This document shows, piece after piece, positions 11,160-62,226 of a DNA stretch of 64,000 nucleotides (position 1 is its first letter; each line of letters opens with the position of its first letter). The DNA comes from Anaeramoeba flamelloides (Eukaryota > Metamonada > Anaeramoebidae): the NCBI GenBank assembly GCA_027625915.1, contig JANTQA010000047.1, forward strand, positions 12,524,001-12,588,000, given 5' to 3'. The notes under the pieces are model-generated. The model was not told the DNA's origin, ran no database searches, and was given only the letters and a program-made list of their open reading frames with translations. The translations under genes were made by a program, and so were the position numbers.

Positions 11160-12519
<1,360 letters not shown>

Positions 12520-17593: not shown

Positions 17594-20500
17594 ATGGCAA
17601 CTCTAGAGGATCAAATTACACAAGTCTTTGAAAAGTTTTATTATGTCACTTATTCTTCAGAGAAATTAAAAAACAAAACAAATGAATTCAGCTATCCAGA
17701 GATCGAATTAAAATACAATTTTCCCAAACAAAAAGAAGATTCAATAATTGAAAGAATTTACCCATTTTGTTTCCCAAATTTGGAATTGTACACAACACAG
17801 AACAAACCAATTAAGTTTGTGATTTTTCTGGTTTCAAAGAATAAAAAAAAAACAAAAAATAACAAAAAAAAACAAAAAAAAAAAAAAAAAAAAAACAAAA
17901 AAAAAACAAAAAAAAAACAAAAAAAAAACAAAAACTGGAACAAAAACAAAAACAAAATTGCTTACTTATCTTTTTTTTTTCATTACAATCTTCAAACTCC
18001 AAAACATTTAGGGAACTTTACACCTTTGTTTTAACCGACTTAGATGGGTCAAGGCTCCATTCACATTGTCTTTTGTTTTGTCCAAATAGCACAAATAAAA
18101 AACCAGAAAGTCTTATTTTTGTGAGTAAATCGTAAGTAACAACCTTAAATAATTCGACTATTTCCGATCTTCCTCAATTATTACAAAAACAAACACACAA
18201 ACCTTCCCTTTAAAATCCATTGTCTTCAATTGCACCGTTTTTTACGTTTCTCTTTTTTTTTTTATTTTTTAACAATCAAAAAAAATCATTCTTTTCTACC
18301 TCTTTGGTATTTTAAAAACCAACAAACAGAACGCAAATAATTTTTTTCACAACACTCTTGGAACTTGTTTCACAGAAAAAAACTTTTAATTCATCTTCAT
18401 TTGATCTTTTTTTAAAATCAATTCGTTCTTCAGCTTTACCACACCTTGGTGAAACATTTAAAGTTTCGATCCCTCGTTCCTTAAGCATACCAAATGATTT
18501 TTTTGAATATACAACACCAAACACTTTGCTCGGTGGGGTAAGACTTTTTTTTGTTCCTTCTCCTTCTTGCAATATTTTTTTCAATTTTTTTTTATTTTTT
18601 TTTGTTTTTTTTTCCATTTAACAATTATTATTTTGTAAAGCAAAATTGTATAAGCTTACATTAAACTGAAAAGGGGTTTACAAGTGATTGCATAGTTACT
18701 GTTTGTTGTAAAAGAAAATGAACAAAATTTATGTTTTTCTTTTCCAATAAAATATTAAAAATATCTCTGCGAAATGTAAATTCCTTTCACTTTAATCCAT
18801 TAAATTGCCACACAGACGGATTTCCTGGGAACTATAATTATACAGGATCTGTTTTGAAATTTAAAGGAGCATTTATATTGTTGAAATTACACAAGAAAAA
18901 TTATGTTCATTTTAATTATAAACTTCTTGTGGAAACATGCCTCGAACCAATAATTACTTTGTTTTTACAAAAAATTTCACAGAATCGTTTTTGATCTCGT
19001 CGTGAGACAATACTAAATAAAAAATAACAATAAAACGATTTATCTTTTGTTTGAATAAAACAAAATTGGTTCGTTGTAATGATTGGTTTCTCAGAATATA
19101 TTTCATTACAATATTTTTTTGTACAACAAATTATCAAAACCAATTGTGTTCAGAAAGTTTGTAGCCTTTTTATTTTTGTTAGGTTTTTTTCCATCACAAG
19201 AGATAATATTATTCGCCTTTATTACACGTTTCAAAAAAACCATTCAAACAATCACTGAACTAATATTTCATTTGGTAGGGTTAGTGTGAATATGTAAGGG
19301 ATATAAACTCTTTTTCAAATAAAAGGGCACAGAAAATTTCAAGAATTATTCATAATTGAATCAAATTAATTGTAGTATCATTCTAAAATCTAAGAAACCC
19401 TTTAAAACATAAAAAACCACTCAACCAAATCTTTAAAACTCATTAAAACAAAAAAAATAAAAATTAAAATTAAATATTTTTAAAAATTGATGTATCCCTT
19501 TTATTTGAATGAGAAATCTCGTTTTGGAAATTGTAAAGAAAAAAAAATTATCAAATCAATTTAAATCATTGAACAAGGTGAATTAAGAAAAAGTTCTTTA
19601 CATTTTATTGATAACTCTTTACACATCAAACTTTTGTTCTTTAAAGTCTCATTTTCAATATAAAACCGCAATTTATCTGGATATTTTGTTGAATTTTTTT
19701 AAATATTTTCTTTTTTCTTTGTTCCATACATCAATCAAATAATGGGCCTTTCTTAATTCCTATATCTAACTTATTCGAAATCAAACTTAAACCGTTTTCA
19801 TTTTTATACTGACAGATTATTTCCAAATTGATTTCTTCTTGTTGTGTTTTTTCATTTTCCAACTGTTCAATATCCAAAAATAAAAAAACAAAAAATTAAA
19901 AAATGAATAATTAAAATGAAAATCACCAACAAGCAATTATCTTATTAACAATCAAATTCAATAGTATTGATGATTTGAGAGGTGTGCCCTTTTGTTTGAA
20001 AAGGAGTTTATATTCGGAAAAAATAAAAATAGTGACGCAATTTAAGAATAAAATATAAGACTGGTATTTACATAATGAATGCGAAAAAAATTTCACTTGG
20101 TTTTTATTTTTTTTCCCCGGCTAAATAGAGATCGAAACCAGAAACTACAACCCACTTCTTGGAAAACTCTATTTATAAAAGTTAAAAAAAAGGAAAATGA
20201 AACCTAAAATTTTTCACTTGATTATTCCAATACAAATACTGAAATGTGAAATTTAAATGGCACAAAATTTCAGCCGATTTTCTTTTTTTTTTTAATTCCA
20301 TAAAATCCGACTTTCGTTTTAGGATTCTTAGCTTCACCCAAAATGTATACAATAAAAAGCCCAAACAAATAAATAGAGATCACAAATTACAATCTACTTC
20401 TTTTCAGAATTTAATTGTTAAAGTGTAAATTGGGTAAATAAAGTGCAAATTCAATTCTCATTTATAATACAAATACCAGCAGCCACTAACTTTGTTCAAA

Positions 20501-23500
20501 TCATTAGATGATCGATCACTTAATATCCAATCTGGATCAGTTCAACTTTTTCAAAAATACCAAAAAAAAAAAAAAAAAAAAAGATGAAATTTGTTCTCAT
20601 TTTAAAAAATAGTCTTTATATTATAGAATACTTTTGCACCATTTCAGTATTTTATGTTTGGATTATTAGTGAAAGCTTTTTTTTCAATAAGAGAAATAAT
20701 TAAATGGTAAAAGGAATCAAGTTTTTATTTTCAAAAAATGAAACACTTTTCACTTTTTTGTCCCAAAGTAAATGGTTAAAAATATTTGTAAAATGAAAAG
20801 AATGATTATAAATTTCGAGCAAATTCACTTTACATTGTTGCCAATTAATAAAGTTTTGTATACTGTTGATGATGAATTCAAAATAAGTTTGCACATGTTT
20901 TAATACTTCATTACATTGTAAAAATCTTTTATGGAATGATTTAATCAACAATTCAAACAAAAAGCTTTCGATCTTGGTATTAGTGATTATAATTATTGAT
21001 GATTCAAGTGAAAAATAAGGTGCTAAATATATTTCCGTAAAAAATTGTATTGATTTGGTTCAGTAGTTCAAAAATTTTCATCACAACTTAAAAATTTATT
21101 AAATAGAAATAATAAGGTATTTATTTTTTATTATTAAAAATAAAGCAAAACAAGATGATTGAAAGATAAATTAATGTTTCAACCCGAATTCAATGATTAA
21201 AGATCTCGTCTTTTGAAGATAGTTACTTTATTTTCAATTGAAATTATTTTCTTTTGAAATTGTATTTCTTTCTTTCGTTTTGTTTCATTAAGGAAATGAA
21301 AAAAAAATAAAGTATCCTAAGTAATTTTTTAAAAAAATAATGTATCCTAAGTAACTTGAAAAAAAAACAATTTACCTCTAGATATTTGGGACACCGATGG
21401 ATAAACCATTTTAATATTAGCAAAATGATTTTTTTAAACGTTAATTCATTTTATTCAAAAAAAAAAATAAAAAAAAAAAGTTTTATAATATAATGGCTCT
21501 GATTACAACACTTTTCAATAGACTCTTCTACTCTAAACAAATTTTATAAATAAAATTTCTTCTTTGAAAGAAGGAGAAATCTACTTGAATTTGAATAATA
21601 AATTTTTCTTATTATTCTCCACATTTCGAAATAAAATCGGAAAATGAATAGAAAATCTTGCGCTTGTTTACTGCTCTATTTCCTTGCAAATGAGGATCAT
21701 AATAAACTATTTTCCTTTTCATCGGTTTTCAGTTGTAATGTATAAATTACGTGTGTTTAAAGGGTTTGAATGGATAATAGAAGAAGAAAAAATTTAATTT
21801 TGGAAATTTCAAAATTGGAAATCATTATTTCACATTTTTTCTTTTTTTCATTTATATTTTTCACCTAATTCATTTGCAAAATTTTCTTTTTATATCCAAG
21901 ATCGATAGCCACTAACCAAAAACGTGTTATTCTAATGTTATTGAAACAGTGAGAAAATGTTTTTAGAAAAATTATATTTATTTATATTGGGATTTTATTT
22001 AGATCTACAATTGAATATCAAAATGAACAGTGTTGTTTTTCTCAATACGATCCCTAAGAATTTTAATTTTTCTATTTTATAAGAAAATATCTTGATTGAC
22101 TAGTTTTACTTCATTTGAATATCAACTATTCTCTAATGTGTATTATTCTACTTATTTCTTATTTATTCTTCAAATGCCAATTATTAAAAATAATTGAGAT
22201 TTGAAAATTTTTTCAGGACGCTTTGACAAAAACCAAGTTTAAAAAATTTTTAAATTTTTCCAAAATGGGACTTTTTTTAATCATTTAAAAATTATTCTAA
22301 AAAAAAGAATCTTTTATTTAGGAAAAATTTCAAATGAAAAAAATAATTAAATTCATCAAAAAACAACAACACATAGAAAAAAGTCCAGAAAAATTAACCA
22401 TTCTTTTCAAAAAAAATAATAAAAGTTTTTTTATTTTTATTTTTTTTTTGAGAGATTTTTTTCGGAATGTAGGATCCCATTTTCCTGAAACTAGAAATTT
22501 TATTTTAAAGATTTTTATCCTAGCTATAATGTGGGTAAGATTATAACTCATAGAATAGCTTTTTTTTAATAAACGAAAAAAGAAATGTACTTTTTAAACA
22601 AATACAAGAAAAAGAGAAAGAAAAGCATTAAAATTAAAAAAAATAATAAAAAATGGTAAAAAATTATAAACTTAATTAAAAGTTCTGTTTTAGTACCTCA
22701 ATTGCCGAATGGCTTGTTGGTTGTTTTCTTTTATGCTGAAAATGTCTGGATTACCAGCATAATTTATTTTAATAAAGAGGCCTAAACATTTGACCAACTA
22801 TAGATCAAATGAAATATATTACTTTATTAAATTTTAAATTAGATCTTTATAGAGAAAAGGTTACATCTATAAAGTGCTGTTTTTTAAACATAAGAATTTG
22901 TTTTCGAAATTTTCTTTTTGATGTTTTGTTGGTCTTTTTGTTAGTTTGCTTTTTTTATTTAATTGTATTTTTTATTTGCAAGTTTCCCAAAATCTTGTTT
23001 TCGCAAAATCCCAGTCCAAGATACCAGCTAGAAAACAAAAAAATCCCAGTCCAAGTAACAACTTGACAAATTGTTTCGAAATATCACACCATTTCGCTTC
23101 ATTTTTATTCAGTTAAGTTCTGTTTGTTTCAGTTAAGTTCAATTTGTTTAAGATCTGCTTCCGTTGAATTCAGTTCGCTTCAGTTACTTTTAGATCTGAT
23201 CATAAACAAGTTCAATTTGTTTACGATCTAATTATAACAAGTTTATTAATAATTAAAATGAATTATTTATCCCTTTTACCATCCCCAATCACATTAAAAA
23301 AAAACAAAAAGAGGAGGAACCTAAGGAACCTAAGGAACCGAGGGAACCCAAACAACTTCAAAAAGGGAATTTATAAAAAATATAATATTTAAATTTCAAA
23401 AACTATCAAAAATTCTAAAAAATAAAAATAATTAAACAAATAAATAAATAAATAAATAGATAAATACCAAAGACTTGTTTACAATTTTTGATTCCAAACA

Positions 23501-26171
23501 ATTGATTTGTTTATTTGCTGCGTTACTATTTGAACGAAGAGTCATTTTCACATCTGATAGCTTAACAAAATTAACAACATCAATCTATTCATTTGTTGGG
23601 CTTTTATATCCATTTGAATGGGCACACGCACTAATACCCATCATTCCTTCAAATATGATTCATGCGTGTTGCGCGCCATTTCCATACATAATAGGAATTC
23701 ATAAATCGTTATTAAGCAAGGCCGAAGACGTCATTGAAGAGGAATGTGTTTATGCAGATCTTGACACACGTGAAGTTGAAATGGATCCAGTTGATCTTGT
23801 CTTATTACCTTCAAGATTAGCTACCAAATTAATGGATTCAATTAAGAAGCATCGCAAAAAGCTGAAGGCATCTGGTGAATTTGATCAAGGCTTAATTTTA
23901 AAAGAGTTTTTAAATTTCTTTGTATCAATTTTCTATGATTATGAAAGCCATTTTCAAATGAATGAAACAAACAATGAATTTGAATTTGATTTTGAATCTT
24001 TTAAAAAAAAGAAAAATAAAAGCATCAAAAGGTTTTTATTAGCCTTTTCACAAACTCAAATGTTTGAATCTTTTTTTCGAACTAAAGAAGCACAAATGAA
24101 AAATCCAAAAGAGACTACAAATTCATTTTTTGTTGAGATGGTTAATCAATATAAACAGACAGAAAATAACAATTCTGGAAGTAACTTTTTGAAAGGATTA
24201 TGGAAAAGAAAAAATTCTATAAAAAAGCAGGATCAAAAAGAAATTGGATTAGAAAAAGATAAGGATACAGAAAATGAGAATGAAAATAAAAGTGAAAATA
24301 AAAATGAAAATGAAAAAGAAAATAAAAAAGAAAAAGAAAATAAAAAAGAAAAAGAAAATAAAAAAGAAAATGAAAAAGAAAAGGATAAAGATAAGGATAA
24401 AAAAACAGAAACAACACCAGTGAATGAAACAACATCGTCATCAGGAAATAAACGTAAAAATACGGTATCGGAGAAATTTAAAGGGTTCTTTAATAGGAAT
24501 AAAAAATCATTACAATTAGAGTTTGAAGAAGTCGAGGAAGAAGAAGAACAGGAGGAAGAAAAAGTTGAAGATGAACGGTTATTATCAGTCATTCAAGGCT
24601 TTTGGAGTGGGAACAAAAATAAATTTAAAGAGTCTCGCTTTTCAAAAAGAAAAAGGAAAAATTCAAATTCTAAAAATAAACCAAAAAATCATAAAAGAAA
24701 TGATGATTTAAAAAACATAAGATCTCAAGCAAGTTTAAAATTAATTGAAAAATTCGAAAATCTATCCTTACAAAATGAACAAAGAAACCAAACATTAACA
24801 AAACATTCTAAAAATAAAAATTATAAATATTCAAACAATAAATTTTCAAATAATAAATATATTCCTAAAAAATTTTCACAAAATAAAACTCAAAAAACAA
24901 TCAAAAAAATTGAAAGTAGTAGTAGTAATAATAATAATTCAACAAAAAACAATAAAACAAGATTTAATTTAAATAATCAAAAACAAAACATTAAATTTTC
25001 AAAAATAGCAAGTAATCTGGGCTGGAAAAGTAATAAAACAGAAGAAGAAAAGCAAAGAGATTTGGAAAAAAAGAAGCAAAAGGATTTGGAAAAAAAAAAA
25101 GAAATGGAAAGAAAAAAGCAAAGAGATCTTGAAAGAAGAAAGGAATTAGAAAGAAGAAGGCAAAACGATCTTGAAAAAAAGAAACAAAAGAAAGAAGAAA
25201 AGCAAAAAGAAATGGAAAGAAAAAAGCAAAGAGATCTTGAGAGAAGAAAGGAATTAGAAAGAAGAAGGCAAAACGATCTTGAAAAAAAGAAACAAAAAAA
25301 AGAAGAAAAGCAAAAAGAAATGGGGAAAAAAAAAAAACCAAAAGCACAGACGCAACTATCAAAAGGATTTAACAGAATCTCAAAAATGTATTCGAAACCT
25401 CCAAAATCACTATCTAATAGGAACAATAATAATAATAATAATAATAAAACTTCACCAAAACCAAAAAATAACAAACAATCTATTGTTAGCAACAGAATTA
25501 AAAATTATAACACATTAAACCAAAATAGTGAAACACAAAATCAACAAAACACAAAAAATACAACTAAATTTAACTTAAAAAACAAGTTAAAAATAAATAC
25601 AAAAAAGAAAAAATCAAAAGGCCAACAATTAGAAAATAAAAATAATGGCTATGCTAAAAAAAATTCTTTATCGCCTCGGGCTACTAAATTTTCATTTCAA
25701 AGTAAATCACCCACTTTAACTCCTAATCATAACAAATTAAAAACTTATAATAGCTTTAGTGGTAGCTTATATAAAAATGGAAACAATAATAGTAACAACA
25801 GCATTAATAATAATAATAGAAACAACATCAACAACAATAATAATAGAAACAACATCAACAATAATAGAAACAATAATAATAACAATAGAAACAACACAAA
25901 TAATTTTAACAACAATAATTATAGAAATAATTTTAATAATAGAAATAATTTTGTTAATAAAAACAATTTTAATAATAAAAATAATAATAGGAATAATAGC
26001 TATAGTATTTCTAATAATGCAATTAATGCTATTAACAATCAAAAAAAACCTTTTTCTAATAATCCCGAAAATAGAACCCAATTCAATAGAAATTCAAATA
26101 ATCAAAAAGTGTATGTATTAAAATCAAAAAATTATCCGTATCCAAATAATGGCAATATAAATCAAAAATAA
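17594..26171 (+). CDS. DENN-domain protein (connecdenn/DENND1-like), four exons
   Basis: Proposed exons are 17594-17814, 18012-18131, 18330-18537 and 23460-26171 (1086 residues, stop TAA). Phases agree at every junction. DENN proteins are exchange factors that load GTP on Rab GTPases in membrane traffic. Seen here: a uDENN part in exons 1-3 (YPFCFPNLELY, then FVLTDLDGSRLHSHCLLF, then LIFVSKS and a helical linker). The cDENN core is at about residues 189-322 (FAALLFERRVIF, YPFEWAHALIPIIPS, CCAPFPYIIGIH), and a dDENN follows to about 415. The rest is low complexity: KE and EN repeats, an acidic patch, a coiled-coil with a 36-residue tandem repeat, then Asn-rich sequence. The CCAPFPYIIGIH phrase is closest to the DENND1 group. 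Introns are about 197, 198 and 4922 bp. The first donor (GTTTGT) is unusual. Joining exons 1-3 to exon 4 rests on complementary domain content and phase; it is inference. Confidence 0.72.
19561..19878 (-). pseudogene. Minus-strand coding-like segments inside the DENN intron, unknown
   Basis: Two adjoining frames on the minus strand look coding. One (19878 to 19731) contains LENEKTQQEEINLEIICQY and SLISNKLDIGIKKGPLF. The next (about 19695 to 19561) contains KYPDKLRFYIENETLKNK and LMCKELSIKCKELFLNS. Such charged, Cys- and Tyr-containing sequence is not expected from random AT-rich spacer. No start codon or splice pair is convincing and no family is recognised. A decayed gene, a nested gene with introns, or an old transposon ORF are all possible. 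Confidence 0.3.
20061..20241. mobile_element. CTGGTATTT-family MITE (copy D)
   Basis: The left end CTGGTATTTACATAATGAAT continues with AAAAAATTTCACTT. The right end, read on the other strand, is CAGTATTTGTATTGGAATAA and then CAAGTGAAAAATTTT. The middle has AATAGAGATCGAAACCAGAA, which matches the middle of the neighbouring copy and of the copies at 14739 and 63305. Confidence 0.5.
20239..20479. mobile_element. CTGGTATTT-family MITE (copy E), abutting copy D
   Basis: The right end, read on the other strand, is CTGGTATTTGTATTATAAAT followed by GAGAATTGAATTTGCAC. The left end (CTGAAATGTGAAATTTAAATGG) is a diverged form of the same arm and touches the end of copy D. The interior AATAGAGATCACAAATTACA repeats that of copy D. 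Confidence 0.45.
20700..21070 (-). pseudogene. Minus-strand coding-like exon inside the DENN intron, unknown
   Basis: A frame open for over 100 codons on the minus strand ends in TAA at 20700. It contains TKIESFLFELLIKSFHKRF, LQCNEVLKHVQTYFEF, INWQQCKVNLLEIYNHS and NHLLWDKKVKSVSFFEN. The His, Trp, Cys and Gln content argues for real or once-real coding sequence. Just upstream a different frame starts with ATG and reads KIFELLNQINTIFYGNIF before a stop. It may be a nested gene whose intron I cannot place, or a relic. Confidence 0.35.
25101..25316 (+). repeat. 108-bp in-frame tandem duplication in the DENN gene tail
   Basis: Two consecutive 108-bp units (second ATG codon at 25212, first at 25104) encode the same 36 residues, beginning EMERKKQRDLERRKELERRR. 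They differ at only a few bases. This is a recent duplication that lengthens a charged coiled-coil without breaking the frame. Confidence 0.85.
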
Positions 26172-41783: not shown

Positions 41784-42872
41784 AATAGTAAATTTTTTAA
41801 AGGATCAATGATTGAAATAAATTATCAATTACAAAAAATATATAAAATAATAAAAGATTTTGGAATGAATCCCAATGATGATAAAACAAAAAAAACCCTA
41901 ATACCAAAAGAAATTTTATATCTTGGTATTTGGTTAGACAAAAAAACATATCTAAAATTTAACTTTGATAAGGTCAATAATAATTTTGAAAAAATCCTAC
42001 ATATTTTTAAAGAAAGGAATTTTTCTAATGGGTTAAAAATTCAATTCTTTAAAGCCGTTTTACATAGTCAACTATTATATGGGTTGGATATATTTGACTT
42101 TACAGAATCCGATTTCAAAAAAATTGATATATGGATTAATAAGAAAATCACAGAATCGCTTTTAATAAACCCACATTCCCCAAGACTTATCTATAAAACA
42201 TAAGCAAAAATTGATTTGGCAAGAATCACAATTTACAAAAGAAAATTCAAATTAATTCAAAAATTAAAAATTTTGGGATTTGATAAATTAATAAATCTTC
42301 TCCCCTTCAGAGAAAAAGAAACAGAAAACATTAATTGGAAAGCTCGAAATTTAAAAGAATTCGAATCTGAACTCGAAGTTTACAGAATTAATCAATTAAA
42401 AAATAGTCCAAGTTGGAAAGTACAAAATTATTTGAAAATAATTTTGATACAGGGAAATATTAACAAACAGCAAAAATATTTAAAATGGAAGTGTTCAACT
42501 TCTATTCTAAAGTTAAGAAATTATACAAATTATCTTAATAGATATTCTTATTTTATGAAAAAAAATAAATCACAATTTTGTCAATTGTGTAAAATAAATA
42601 AAGATTTGGATATCATTGAAGATTTGGATCATTTTCTCTGGAACTGCCCAGCCTATAAAAATAATCGGAAAATCTGGATTTCTGAATTAGAAAAAAATAA
42701 TTTTTCACTTATTTTAAATAATAATAATATTTATAATATTATTAATAAACAAGATTCAATATCTTTATTAGCTTTAGTAGATAATAAGACTATGTTTGAA
42801 TCTAAACTAAAATTCAAAATTTTCCACCACGCTAATACGTTCCAAACAATCACAATAATACAATTTCATTGA
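41784..42872 (+). mobile_element. 5'-truncated LINE (non-LTR retrotransposon), C-terminal part of the reverse-transcriptase ORF
   Basis: One frame runs from about 41784 to TGA at 42870-42872, with a single in-frame TAA at 42201-42203. The left part matches the region just after the reverse-transcriptase catalytic core: NPNDDKTKK, LYLGIWLDKK and AVLHSQLLYGLDIF are the usual post-YADD motifs. The YADD box and everything before it are absent. The C-terminal part ends with the Cys/His cluster typical of LINE ORF2 (CQLCKINKDLDIIEDLDH, then NCPAY). 5' truncation is the normal outcome of target-primed insertion. With one stop in about 360 codons it is dead but not ancient. The 3' end of the element and a target duplication could not be fixed. 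Confidence 0.8.
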
Positions 42873-55117: not shown

Positions 55118-55936
55118 TTAAAAGTCTAGAAACTGTTCCAAGTAAGGGCAAGAAATGGGGTTAATTGATCCTTTAATTTTGCAGTCTGAAAATTTGGGGC
55201 AAATTCCGCAAGGCACTTTCAGCATGTTTGAGCTGAGTGAAGGAGACTCGTCGATTTGGAAAACATCCTCTTTTGTAAAACTGTACACCCTTCTCACTAT
55301 CCTCATATAAATCAGGGAGTCTATCACTCTCATCAAATCGTTGCTTGTCAAGCTTTGTTGCACCAATTTTCTTTTTTCTAATTCTTCAAGTATTTGCGCA
55401 ACGTTGGCAGTCCCAAGATCCTTGATTATAATCAAGGCGCTGTCTGTTAGCAACTCGACGAATTCCGTGTTCCATTCTTGATCGATATAAAAAACATCCC
55501 CCGTGACCTCGACCGAGGGCTCAATTTCAAAAAGAAGATAAACAAGCTGGTTTTTAAATTTGATCGACTTTTCTGTTTTGACTAGTTTTCTTTTTTTCAG
55601 ACGAGTAAGGATTTTCCTTGTTATCGTTTTTTTGAGCCCAGTCTTCTGCGAGATGTCGCGTTGCAAAATCCCCATCGATCCGCTCTCCTTAATTACTCGG
55701 TATATAAATGCCTCCTGGTTACTTAGTCCTTGCATCTTACGCGCAGCTTGCCCAGACACCTTTTGAAACACCTTTTGCCCATCTTTCCGTTGGAACAAGC
55801 GGATCCTTCCTGTTTTCAAAAGCTGATTCAGTGAGCCCAACAGTGCATTTTTTTCCGTTTTCAAGACCTTTGTTAAAGTTTCGATTGTCGTGAATTCTTC
55901 AGTCATTGCTTTTAAAATGTTGTTAGAAAAATCCAT
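55118..55936 (-). CDS. RPC34: RNA polymerase III subunit RPC6 (RPC34/POLR3F)
   Basis: A 272-residue protein from ATG (complement 55934-55936) to TAA, with no intron. RPC34 belongs to the Pol III-specific trimer that opens the promoter and contacts the TFIIIB factor Brf1, so it is needed for tRNA and 5S rRNA synthesis. Seen here: N-terminal winged-helix repeats, with LTKVLKTEKNALLGSLNQLL (about residues 20-39) and YRVIKESGSMGILQRDIS through KTITRKILTRLKKRKLV (about 80-125). A central block contains YLLFEIEPSVEVTGDVFY. The C-terminal cysteine motif is C-x2-C-x5-C-x10-C (PCGICPKFSDC ... SCPYL), which binds a 4Fe-4S cluster in the human protein. The protein is somewhat shorter than animal versions (about 316), mostly through trimmed linkers. 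The four cysteines and the ending LEQFLDF are good family marks. Base composition is richer in G and C than the surroundings. Confidence 0.93.
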   Translation of the reverse strand: MDFSNNILKAMTEEFTTIETLTKVLKTEKNALLGSLNQLLKTGRIRLFQRKDGQKVFQKVSGQAARKMQGLSNQEAFIYRVIKESGSMGILQRDISQKTGLKKTITRKILTRLKKRKLVKTEKSIKFKNQLVYLLFEIEPSVEVTGDVFYIDQEWNTEFVELLTDSALIIIKDLGTANVAQILEELEKRKLVQQSLTSNDLMRVIDSLIYMRIVRRVYSFTKEDVFQIDESPSLSSNMLKVPCGICPKFSDCKIKGSINPISCPYLEQFLDF

Positions 55937-57189
55937 TTCCGCTGTTTGTTATTTGACGGATTTGTCTATATGTAAATCAAGAATTAAATCAAAAGAAATG
56001 TTGTAAAAAAATGATTTTCTTCTTAGGTTTTCACATTGAGGATTGTAAACATTATTTTCTTTCCTAGTTTGGGAGACAATGTTTTTTTAAAAAACTAGTA
56101 ATTGGTTTAACAGAATACTTGGGTTTTTTGACAAGATAACAATTGATCTCAAAATATTTTTTAAGTTTCTTAAAGGAATTAATATATTTAATCAATTTTG
56201 AGTTTTTCTGTTTTCTTCTGAATTGAAATGTTTAGAATTATCACTTCTTTGACTTAATACATGTACATTTTAAATAAACTCGAGAGTGGGATATATCCAA
56301 GTATAATATCTTTACACCCAATTAAAAAATGATAAACCAATGAGAGTAATCAAAAAAACTGAACACAAATCCTTTCATCTTCGGTGTTATCAAAATAAAA
56401 TCTATGCTTTTATATTCTTCTTGTTCTAATTCAATAGATAATTTGTTACCCAATTGTATATAAAAGTTCAAATCATTTTTGAAGGTAAAATCATTGATAT
56501 TATATGTAGATTATAATTAGGAATTAAATTTGGTTCAAATTTTTTAGTTTTTTTTGTATTTTTTTGAAAATTTGTTATTTTTTTTATATCAAATATAAAC
56601 TCTATTATAATGAAAAACTTTCACATTCAAATTTTGATCTTTAGAATTTCATATATAATAATAAAAGTTTAAGAAAATCAATGCATACTCACTTAGGATT
56701 AGTGTTGGTTTCTTTAAAACTTAACAACTAAAATATTGAAGAACAAATAAAAATTGTTTTTATAACGATACATTGGTTAAACAGACATGTAAGCTAAAAT
56801 TTCAAAAATAGGGGCAAACTTTTTTATTATTATTTTTTTCTTTTTTGATTTGTCTTTCAAAAAATACAATGATTATACAACATTTTTATTTGTTAATCTA
56901 TATTGGCTATAGTCTCTAAAAAATTTAGTAAAATACCTTATTATCCAAAAAAAAAAACAATTAAACAAACTTTTATTCTGATGAAAAATATACCCCTATG
57001 ATTGAAATTGAGCTAACAGATTATTTTTAAAAAAAGTAATTAAAAAAATTAATGTGAAAAAATATAAAAAAAAAGCAATCATTTCTTGATCTTATATATG
57101 ATATTTGATATAACTACTCCCTCTTTGCTTGACTTTTATTTTTAAATTTAAATAAAAAATTTTGGTTTGGAAAATTTTTGTGAAACAAA
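55937..57189. other. Gene-free spacer upstream of RPC34
   Basis: AT-rich, without a gene. It contains the second copy of the 30.9-kb repeat. Confidence 0.4.
56360..56720 (+). repeat. Dispersed repeat, copy 2 (partner at 30.9 kb)
   Basis: It has the order TCAAAATAAAATCTATGC, ATTCTTCTTGTTCTAATTC and AGGATTAGTGTTGGTTTCTT, which parallels 30890-31500 with a shorter middle. Confidence 0.45.
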
Positions 57190-59890: not shown

Positions 59891-62226
59891 TTAATCCGAA
59901 ATATCGGACGAAGCAGTGTCTGAATCTGAAACACTTTCTGAGCTGTCTTCTGAGGATGAGGTTATTGCTCTTTTTTTTTTTACATATTTCTTCCTGTCTT
60001 CCCTTTCAAGTTCTTCATCTGAACTTGAAGTTAACACTTTTTTCTTTTTTTTGGAAAACTTTTTGGCACGGAATAATATTTTTGATGTTGTGTCCACTCT
60101 TCTTCCTGATTTTTTCCTCTTCTCTCTTTCTTTCTTATCTTTTATTTTTTCCTTTTCTCTCTTTTTCAATCTTTGCCTTTTGAGGAAAGATACTGAGAAT
60201 TTCTTTTCTTTCTTCTTTTTCTTTACTTTTTCCTTCTTCGTCGATTCTATTTCTGAATTAGTGGAGGAACCTTCTTCATCATCGGTGCTCTCCATGGAAC
60301 TTGAATTTGAAGAAAATTCTTCACTTGAAAGTGATGAACTGCTTGAAGAAAGCTCTTGTCTCATTACTTTCCGTAACACTCTTTTTTGTTTACCAAATTC
60401 CATTCTAGCCATTTTGCCTTTTTTGGATTTTTTATTTTTATCTTTATTTTTTTTTAAAAGCTTTTTAAATCTTCTCCCATGGCTTCTTAAAATATTTTTC
60501 GATTTTTTCAAATCACCCTTAATTGCATATGTTGCGCCTCTTTGAACGACATTTTGATTCCACAAATCATAATCGATCTCATTAAGGGCTTCTCCGATAT
60601 CTTGGGTTGTGGATAGCTTTTTCGTCACAGTCCTATTCCATTTCCCACCGTTCAGTGAGGTGTACCTGATTTGGAGTTGGAAATAGAGATTTTTTTGATT
60701 CTTTTTCGCTTCTTCGATGTCGTCTGCGCCAAACTCCTTGATCCCGTAATTGAAGGATAATTCGTGGTCCTCTGTCACGTTCCCAATTTCCTGCTCTAAT
60801 CTGGTGCCAACCTTCCGATCATCCTCATCATAGACAAAAAGGCACTTGTGTAAGATAACCTGGATATTCACGGAAGTTGCAATTACGGAGTTGCTCATGA
60901 TGTTTTTAAATCGATCAGCCAGCTCCACGGGCTTGAGAATCAAGGTGTCGCCACCGCTCTGTGTGGATATGGTACCTATTTTTTCCAAGTTGCAATCCGT
61001 GTCCCGAATAGTAATAATATCGAAGATCACTCCAGAGTTGGTGCACATTTCTCCCATCCTTGAATAAAATTGATCAGTCTGCTCAAGTTTTTCACCCTCA
61101 ACTTCAAGCGAGCCGATGCCGATATTGGATTGCCCATCTGTGCAAAGAATTACCTTCGATCCAACTTTTTGCGAGGCTATTGCTATTGAAAGGGCAACGG
61201 CTGGCCCCAGTGCCGTTTGGCCATTTTCATTCAGGCTATATACCTTTTTGATCATTGACCTTCCGCTTTCTTTAACTGGCGGCGGGAGTTCAAAATTTGT
61301 GCCCAAATTAATGAGCTCTTCTTCATTGTCAAGATCTTGGTCTTTAACAACCAAACTTTCATTCATGCCAGAGCCGTAGACAGTGACCTCATTCGAAAAT
61401 GTAACCAAAACTACCTTCCTATCGGGGTATTGGCGTGACAATTCTTCAATTTGATTACCAACAGCAATTTTCAAGCATTGCAGCCGAGACACCCATGAAA
61501 TTTCTTGGTTCTGCTGGCCATACCCTCCTCCACCAAATGCGGAATAATCCTGCTTGAACATCTTTTTTAATTTTTTTTGACTTAATTTGTTGCCTTCCAA
61601 TTTGGAAGTAATGGACATCGAGCCACTTTTATCTATACAAAATACAATTACAGATTCATCAGAAACATTCTCTTGTTTTTCTTCTTGCTCATTAACCAAA
61701 TAGTCAACCTCTTGTTCAGTTGGGATTTTGACTTTGTCTGCATCTTTAAATAAATTAATGTTACCACAAAATTCACACTTCCAAAGGATGGATCCCTATT
61801 TCAATTTTTTTTTTTTTTGTTTTATTTTTGATTTTTTGTTTTTTTTTTCCGCAAAAGATATTAAAGTTTTAAAATAAAAAAGATCTTCGAAAAGACCAAT
61901 AAACATTAAAAAAATTGACACTAAATCTTCTTTTAAAATGAATTTAATTATTTTAAATAAAAATCTTCTTGTTGACCTTTTTTCATTGAAAGTTCATTAA
62001 TAAAAAAATCTGTAAAAAATCATATCAAAAATTATGTTTCACTTATTTTTCGGTTTTTTAGTTTATTTTTTTTCTTAATTTTTCAAAACATAACGGTTTT
62101 GTGTGTTTGTATATAATTTAAAAGTGAATTATAAATAAGATTTCATAATTAGCTGTCGTTGTATACTAAAGAATATATATATTGTTTTTCTATTTATTAT
62201 TTCAATTGAGTTACAAATTTCGAAAT

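Follow-up and report, generated by a model that had tools for sequence, protein, structure and literature searches.

The 64-kb window analysed here (64 000 nucleotides (nt) of Anaeramoeba flamelloides, assembly GCA_027625915.1, contig JANTQA010000047.1; C48:12524001-12588000) contains a large exon, at 23460..26171 on the plus strand, that resembles the second part of a DENN module. This raises the question of where the first part lies and how the two are joined. A sequence-only reading had placed the missing N-terminal part in three short exons with matching phases nearly 5 kb upstream, and this was recovered exactly, with the same ends (17594, 18537 and 23460, in window positions, as are all positions below) and the same 183 residues. 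We consider it nearly certain, from the sequence, that the pieces form a single cis-spliced four-exon gene coding for a DENN protein of 1086 residues, and we infer that its third intron is removed as an old spliceosomal intron.

The exons were located by three-frame translation. Exon 1 (17594..17814, plus strand, like the rest of the gene) carries the start codon and the first part of uDENN in 73 codons plus 2 nt; it ends in phase 2 at the donor GTTTGT and is also present in four paralogues, which share the site and phase of intron 1 (17815..18011; 197 nt, GTTTGT...TTTAG). Exon 2 (18012..18131) holds the remaining uDENN and the start of cDENN, including FVLTDLDGSR, and ends in phase 2 at the donor GTAAGT. 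It is followed by intron 2 (18132..18329; 198 nt, GTAAGT...AACAG). Exon 3 (18330..18537) codes for the first part of cDENN and ends with ...NTLLGG in phase 0, at the donor GTAAGA. After intron 3 (18538..23459; 4922 nt, GTAAGA...AATAG), exon 4 supplies the remaining cDENN, dDENN and a low-complexity K/N/E-rich tail up to the stop codon TAA at 26169-26171. Exons 1-3 total 549 nt, or 183 codons, and join exon 4, a long open reading frame (ORF) of 903 amino acids, in phase 0. Intron 3 has the GT-AG ends of a spliceosomal intron and leaves the frame intact across the join; its site is found in 11 other gene models, seven in group A and four in group B (see below). It is about 25 times longer than introns 1 and 2, in agreement with the earlier estimate of more than twenty times.

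Profile and structure searches were conducted with the first 420 residues of the spliced protein. Exon 4 alone aligns with the DENN profile from position 85 of 186 (1.2e-28), confirming that it begins in the middle of the module, as proposed; the spliced protein aligns over positions 3-185 (1.2e-33), constituting a complete central DENN domain. The uDENN match improves from an E-value of 0.0022, obtained with exon 1 extended by 40 nt of intron 1, to 2.5e-9 after splicing, and its score of 37.8 bits is above the cut-off of 22.3. Three further weak Pfam matches (Avl9, SPA and DUF3970) are all below cut-off.

Two solved structures are matched by the spliced protein, DENND1A (3.5e-36, residues 32-412) and DENND1B (4e-36), and the DENND1A alignment is a single stretch that crosses the exon 3/4 junction unbroken. 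A profile of the five paralogous proteins gives 5.8e-47 for DENND1A and 1.3e-46 for DENND1B, again collinear across the junction; its third structure match, a sulfotransferase, is very weak (0.0044). DENND1A and DENND1B are connecdenn proteins, guanine nucleotide exchange factors (GEFs) of Rab35. The likeness to them (PDB 6ekk and 3tw8) comprises uDENN-cDENN-dDENN, collinear over residues 32-412 of the window protein, whereas the window gene differs by its low-complexity tail and its four exons with one long intron. Among solved structures, in which other DENN subfamilies may not be represented, the predicted protein is most like the DENND1 Rab GEFs. It is itself a predicted Rab GEF.

The genome searched comprises 254 Mb in 76 contigs. 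Searched at the DNA level, the start of exon 4 has matches at five places: the window itself, the paralogue C33 (95% identity) and the paralogues C41, C43 and C1 (65-68%). In all four paralogues, exons 1-3 were found upstream of exon 4, in order and on its strand, when both strands of about 15-20 kb were searched. The junction phases are 2, 2 and 0 in all five genes and the splice sites are shared, an arrangement not expected by chance. Intron 3 measures 3179, 4877, 2391 and 3280 nt in the four paralogues; in the five genes, introns 1 and 2 are 91-198 nt long, with a single exception in C41 (887 nt). The predicted proteins have 1086 residues for the window, 790 for C33, 1077 for C43, 959 for C41 and 881 for C1. 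Despite the 95% identity at the start of exon 4, the C33 protein is 296 residues shorter than that of the window and stops within the charged repeats of the tail. Between the window gene and C33, synonymous divergence (dS) is 0.162 and non-synonymous divergence (dN) 0.029 in exons 1-3 (ratio 0.177); over the 263 codons with which exon 4 begins, dS is 0.284 and dN 0.018 (ratio 0.063). Judged by these ratios, both halves of the gene are under purifying selection.

There are at least 111 DENN and at least 63 uDENN matches in the genome, a match being an exon rather than a gene, and the uDENN matches being listed to E = 1, some of them below cut-off. For each DENN match, the closest uDENN match in the 15 kb upstream, on its own strand, was taken as the partner, and groups A (the window type), B (with a short central exon) and C were defined by exon layout. 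There are 26 group-B-like DENN matches, starting at profile positions 73-85 in an ORF of at most 190 amino acids; a uDENN match lies 2.1-9.4 kb upstream of 24 of them, which make up group B, and no such partner was found for the other two. Group C has seven genes, with uDENN and DENN positions 4-140 in a single ORF and the remaining DENN 1.3-7.3 kb further on; in contrast to the window type, its long gap falls at DENN position ~140. Outside group C, 21 DENN matches appear in one ORF with their uDENN, as judged by equal ORF length, and many of the remaining ones have no uDENN partner in this pairing. The paralogues C43, C41 and C1, whose exons are found by tblastn, go unpaired with the uDENN Pfam search, so that the pair counts are lower bounds.

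Both splice sites were read in further genes picked by hand, three of group A, four of group B and two of group C, with intron lengths computed by hand. The three group-A models have the donor after LGD (LCD once) and the acceptor before ...[LF]F, in phase 0, with introns of 3987, 4108 and 4024 nt; for a further group-A gene, on C48, the acceptor side was read. In the four group-B models the donor follows LAD, LVD or VID and the acceptor precedes [IVT]D[FY]..LF, a homologous site in phase 0, with introns of 4679, 4275, 2115 and 2332 nt. The two group-C introns (4847 and 1311 nt) have their donor after HPF[SA]WP, also in phase 0. The phase-0 site of intron 3 is thus common to the 12 models read in groups A and B. 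Because it is common to the two groups (seven further models), the intron probably predates their split and duplications; the shared site probably reflects common descent, with parallel gain as the other possibility.

Two other protein families were used as controls for intron length. Adaptin_N gives 95 matches in the genome, 39 neighbouring pairs of which are continuous in the profile to within 20 residues. The introns estimated from these pairs measure at most 500 nt in 17 cases, 501-1000 nt in two and more than 1 kb in 20; the 20 long ones (1.3-4.4 kb) occupy three conserved positions. Ribosomal L14 gives 32 matches forming 16 pairs, all with short gaps (112-416 nt in 16/16, from match coordinates, the match itself running through stops into the intron in two pairs). 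The long adaptin introns resemble DENN intron 3 in their kilobase size, their position conserved among paralogues, their phase 0 by inspection and a U-rich tract after the donor (18/20), and differ in belonging to another gene family and in their range, 1.3-4.4 kb where the junctions align well. Two long-intron sites were read in DENN genes and three in adaptin genes, and all five look phase 0. On these estimates, long introns at fixed sites are common in the adaptin control and absent at the L14 junction seen, and the DENN case is not exceptional. The oddity that the sequence-only reading had implied for the long intron was not borne out, since long introns at conserved sites occur in adaptin genes as well as in other DENN groups. 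Their presence at conserved positions in adaptins suggests that DENN intron 3 is an ordinary cis-spliced long intron.

We asked whether intron 3 might be kept long for a function, as the site of an internal promoter, an enhancer or an unannotated RNA. This would fit the length of more than 2 kb in all 12 group-A and group-B models, next to the short introns 1 and 2 of the five paralogues, but the contents of the intron make it improbable. No Rfam family at gathering score and no tRNA was found in the whole 64-kb window, intron 3 included. There are 23 ORFs of at least 50 amino acids overlapping intron 3, the longest wholly internal one having 119; a Pfam search of ten of the intron ORFs (67-119 amino acids) gave two matches, both below cut-off (E-values 0.067 and 0.087). 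A nested gene or RNA inside intron 3 was rejected, there being no Rfam, tRNA or above-cut-off Pfam match in the ORFs searched. The recursive splice pattern YAG|GTA[AT][GA] is absent from four of the five introns and occurs twice in that of C33.

Sequence conservation within the intron likewise argues against a functional length. Mostly scattered pieces of under ~200 nt align among the five introns. A piece of 487 nt shared by the long introns of C1 and C33 is also present at 498-973 of the window, outside the gene, and is therefore a dispersed repeat. In the window this repeat covers ~0.5 kb (437-977); its pieces match three places around or in the C33 paralogue, and the copy in the C33 intron also matches the C1 intron. 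At its two ends, intron 3 is 75% identical (114 nt on the donor side) and 71% identical (83 nt on the acceptor side) to that of C33, compared with 78-83% for the flanks and short introns. Beyond a repeated stretch of ~70 nt, the intron core (18683..19300, plus strand) matches elsewhere, by DNA search, only two pieces of the C33 intron, one of 397 nt (at 18683-19079; 74% identical) and one of 62 nt (81% identical). Otherwise the core search gives eight matches of ~55-75 nt, all to one stretch of the core. The core (74-81%) has diverged about as much as nearby non-coding DNA (71-83%). Its homology between the window and C33 suggests that the ancestral intron was already longer than the presently conserved ends; gains or losses of kilobases have probably followed in every copy. 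A function specific to the long DENN introns is also unlikely because of the adaptin control.

Alternatively, the locus could consist of two genes: one would code for a short uDENN protein and stop after exon 3, and the other, driven by its own promoter just before 23460, for a truncated cDENN/dDENN protein. The 4.9-kb gap and the size of the exon 4 ORF favour such a division. However, the donor of exon 3 and the acceptor of exon 4 agree in phase in all five paralogues, the cDENN domain is itself divided between these exons, and the conserved residues of exon 4 begin directly at the acceptor (INTKDLF...), without a start codon there. Given that the paralogues have the same phase-0 junction and that exons 1-3 evolve under purifying selection, it is unlikely that a separate transcript starts before 23460 or that the uDENN part is a dead fragment, and we regard two genes as very improbable. 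Several points do weigh against a single gene. The joining of the exons is predicted from sequence, and the splice sites were picked by reading frame and homology. Exon 4 may have independent internal starts. The uDENN of the window is weak in the exon-by-exon search of the genome (21.9 bits, or 22.3 with its neighbours), as are the tblastn matches for exon 1 of C1 (E-value 0.010) and exon 3 of C41 (0.026). One continuous match in three parts had been anticipated; uDENN and the full DENN were obtained, but dDENN taken alone is weak (0.0055; 17.2 bits against a Pfam cut-off of 26.8), while the DENND1A alignment extends through the dDENN region, to residue 412. Finally, trans-splicing of two RNAs carrying the two halves, as reported for the split introns of Giardia, would accommodate a large gap conserved in paralogues, but its probability is close to negligible, given that exons 1-3 lie in order, on the strand of exon 4 and 2.4-4.9 kb away in four paralogues, that adaptin genes have the same layout, and that 2 of the 63 uDENN matches (both below cut-off) have no DENN match in the 15 kb downstream on their own strand.

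In the single-gene model, the four exons would give one protein composed of uDENN-cDENN-dDENN and a low-complexity charged tail. Introns 1 and 2 would be short, and intron 3 would be an old spliceosomal intron lying between ...LGG and INTKDLF... and removed as an ordinary GT-AG intron. It would lengthen and shorten by insertions and deletions that leave the reading frame untouched, its body being presumably neutral.

The ends of these introns have a biased composition. The donor side was measured as T-minus-A in the 60 nt after position +6, with random 60-mers from five intron interiors as the baseline (mean -0.03). T exceeds A in 13/13 long DENN introns (mean 0.53) and 18/20 long adaptin introns (mean 0.43), or 31/33 in total; short adaptin introns show the same in 17/17 cases, with a mean of 0.45. 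On the acceptor side, all 12 short adaptin introns with a called acceptor have more A than T (five are uncalled); the mean is -0.17 for long adaptin introns (4/19 T-rich, 1/20 being uncalled) and -0.05 for long DENN introns (5/15 T-rich). The A-rich sequence before many DENN and adaptin acceptors is the opposite of the polypyrimidine tract usually seen at the 3' end. U-rich 5' and A-rich 3' ends were rejected as a mark of long introns only, the short adaptin introns being equally strong or stronger. The paralogues are not independent (there are five long-intron sites), so p-values overstate the case for a skew. It is conceivable, though doubtful, that this genome defines its introns distinctively, by a U-rich tract at the donor and often an A-rich acceptor side with no ordinary polypyrimidine tract; the ends might pair or bind a factor like TIA-1/Nam8, and kilobase introns at old fixed sites might so be reliably spliced. 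Against such a mechanism, a U-rich donor side is missing from introns 1 and 2 in the five DENN genes (6/10 positive, mean 0.01), and A-richness on the acceptor side is clear only in short adaptin introns.

The window is AT-rich (GC 17-36% in 2-kb steps), with K/N-rich protein tails, and the genome has large gene families and 16 ribosomal L14 copies. These features fit A. flamelloides, for which the main text of PMC11550330 reports a set of ribosomal protein genes numbering more than 1100. Other genes of the window include an intronless actin ORF (11383-12519; 378 residues, counted from the stop before it; Pfam Actin 2.1e-148) and, on the minus strand, an ORF for Rpc34 of RNA polymerase III (55118-55948; 1.2e-44) and a Sec23/24-trunk-like protein (59891-61795; 1e-7). 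The start of the latter ORF seems to lie within a coding exon, and there is therefore probably an upstream exon. ORF pieces at 41784-42872 on the plus strand resemble, by eye only, remnants of a retroelement reverse transcriptase/RNase H; a Pfam search of 42204-42869 gave no match.

Expanded Rabs and expanded subfamilies of TBC Rab GTPase-activating proteins are reported in the main text of PMC11550330, on the A. flamelloides symbiosome. The words DENN and GEF are absent from that main text, and no literature combining the DENN domain and Anaeramoeba was found. Besides the group of the window gene, kilobase gaps inside the DENN module occur in 24 group-B-like and seven group-C genes. Many DENN genes of this genome would be halved by ORF calling, or by gene models in which introns may not reach a few kilobases, and a large set of probable Rab activators would thus be undercounted. 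The useful lesson is one of annotation; the large DENN family and the frequent U-rich layout at the donor are of remaining interest.

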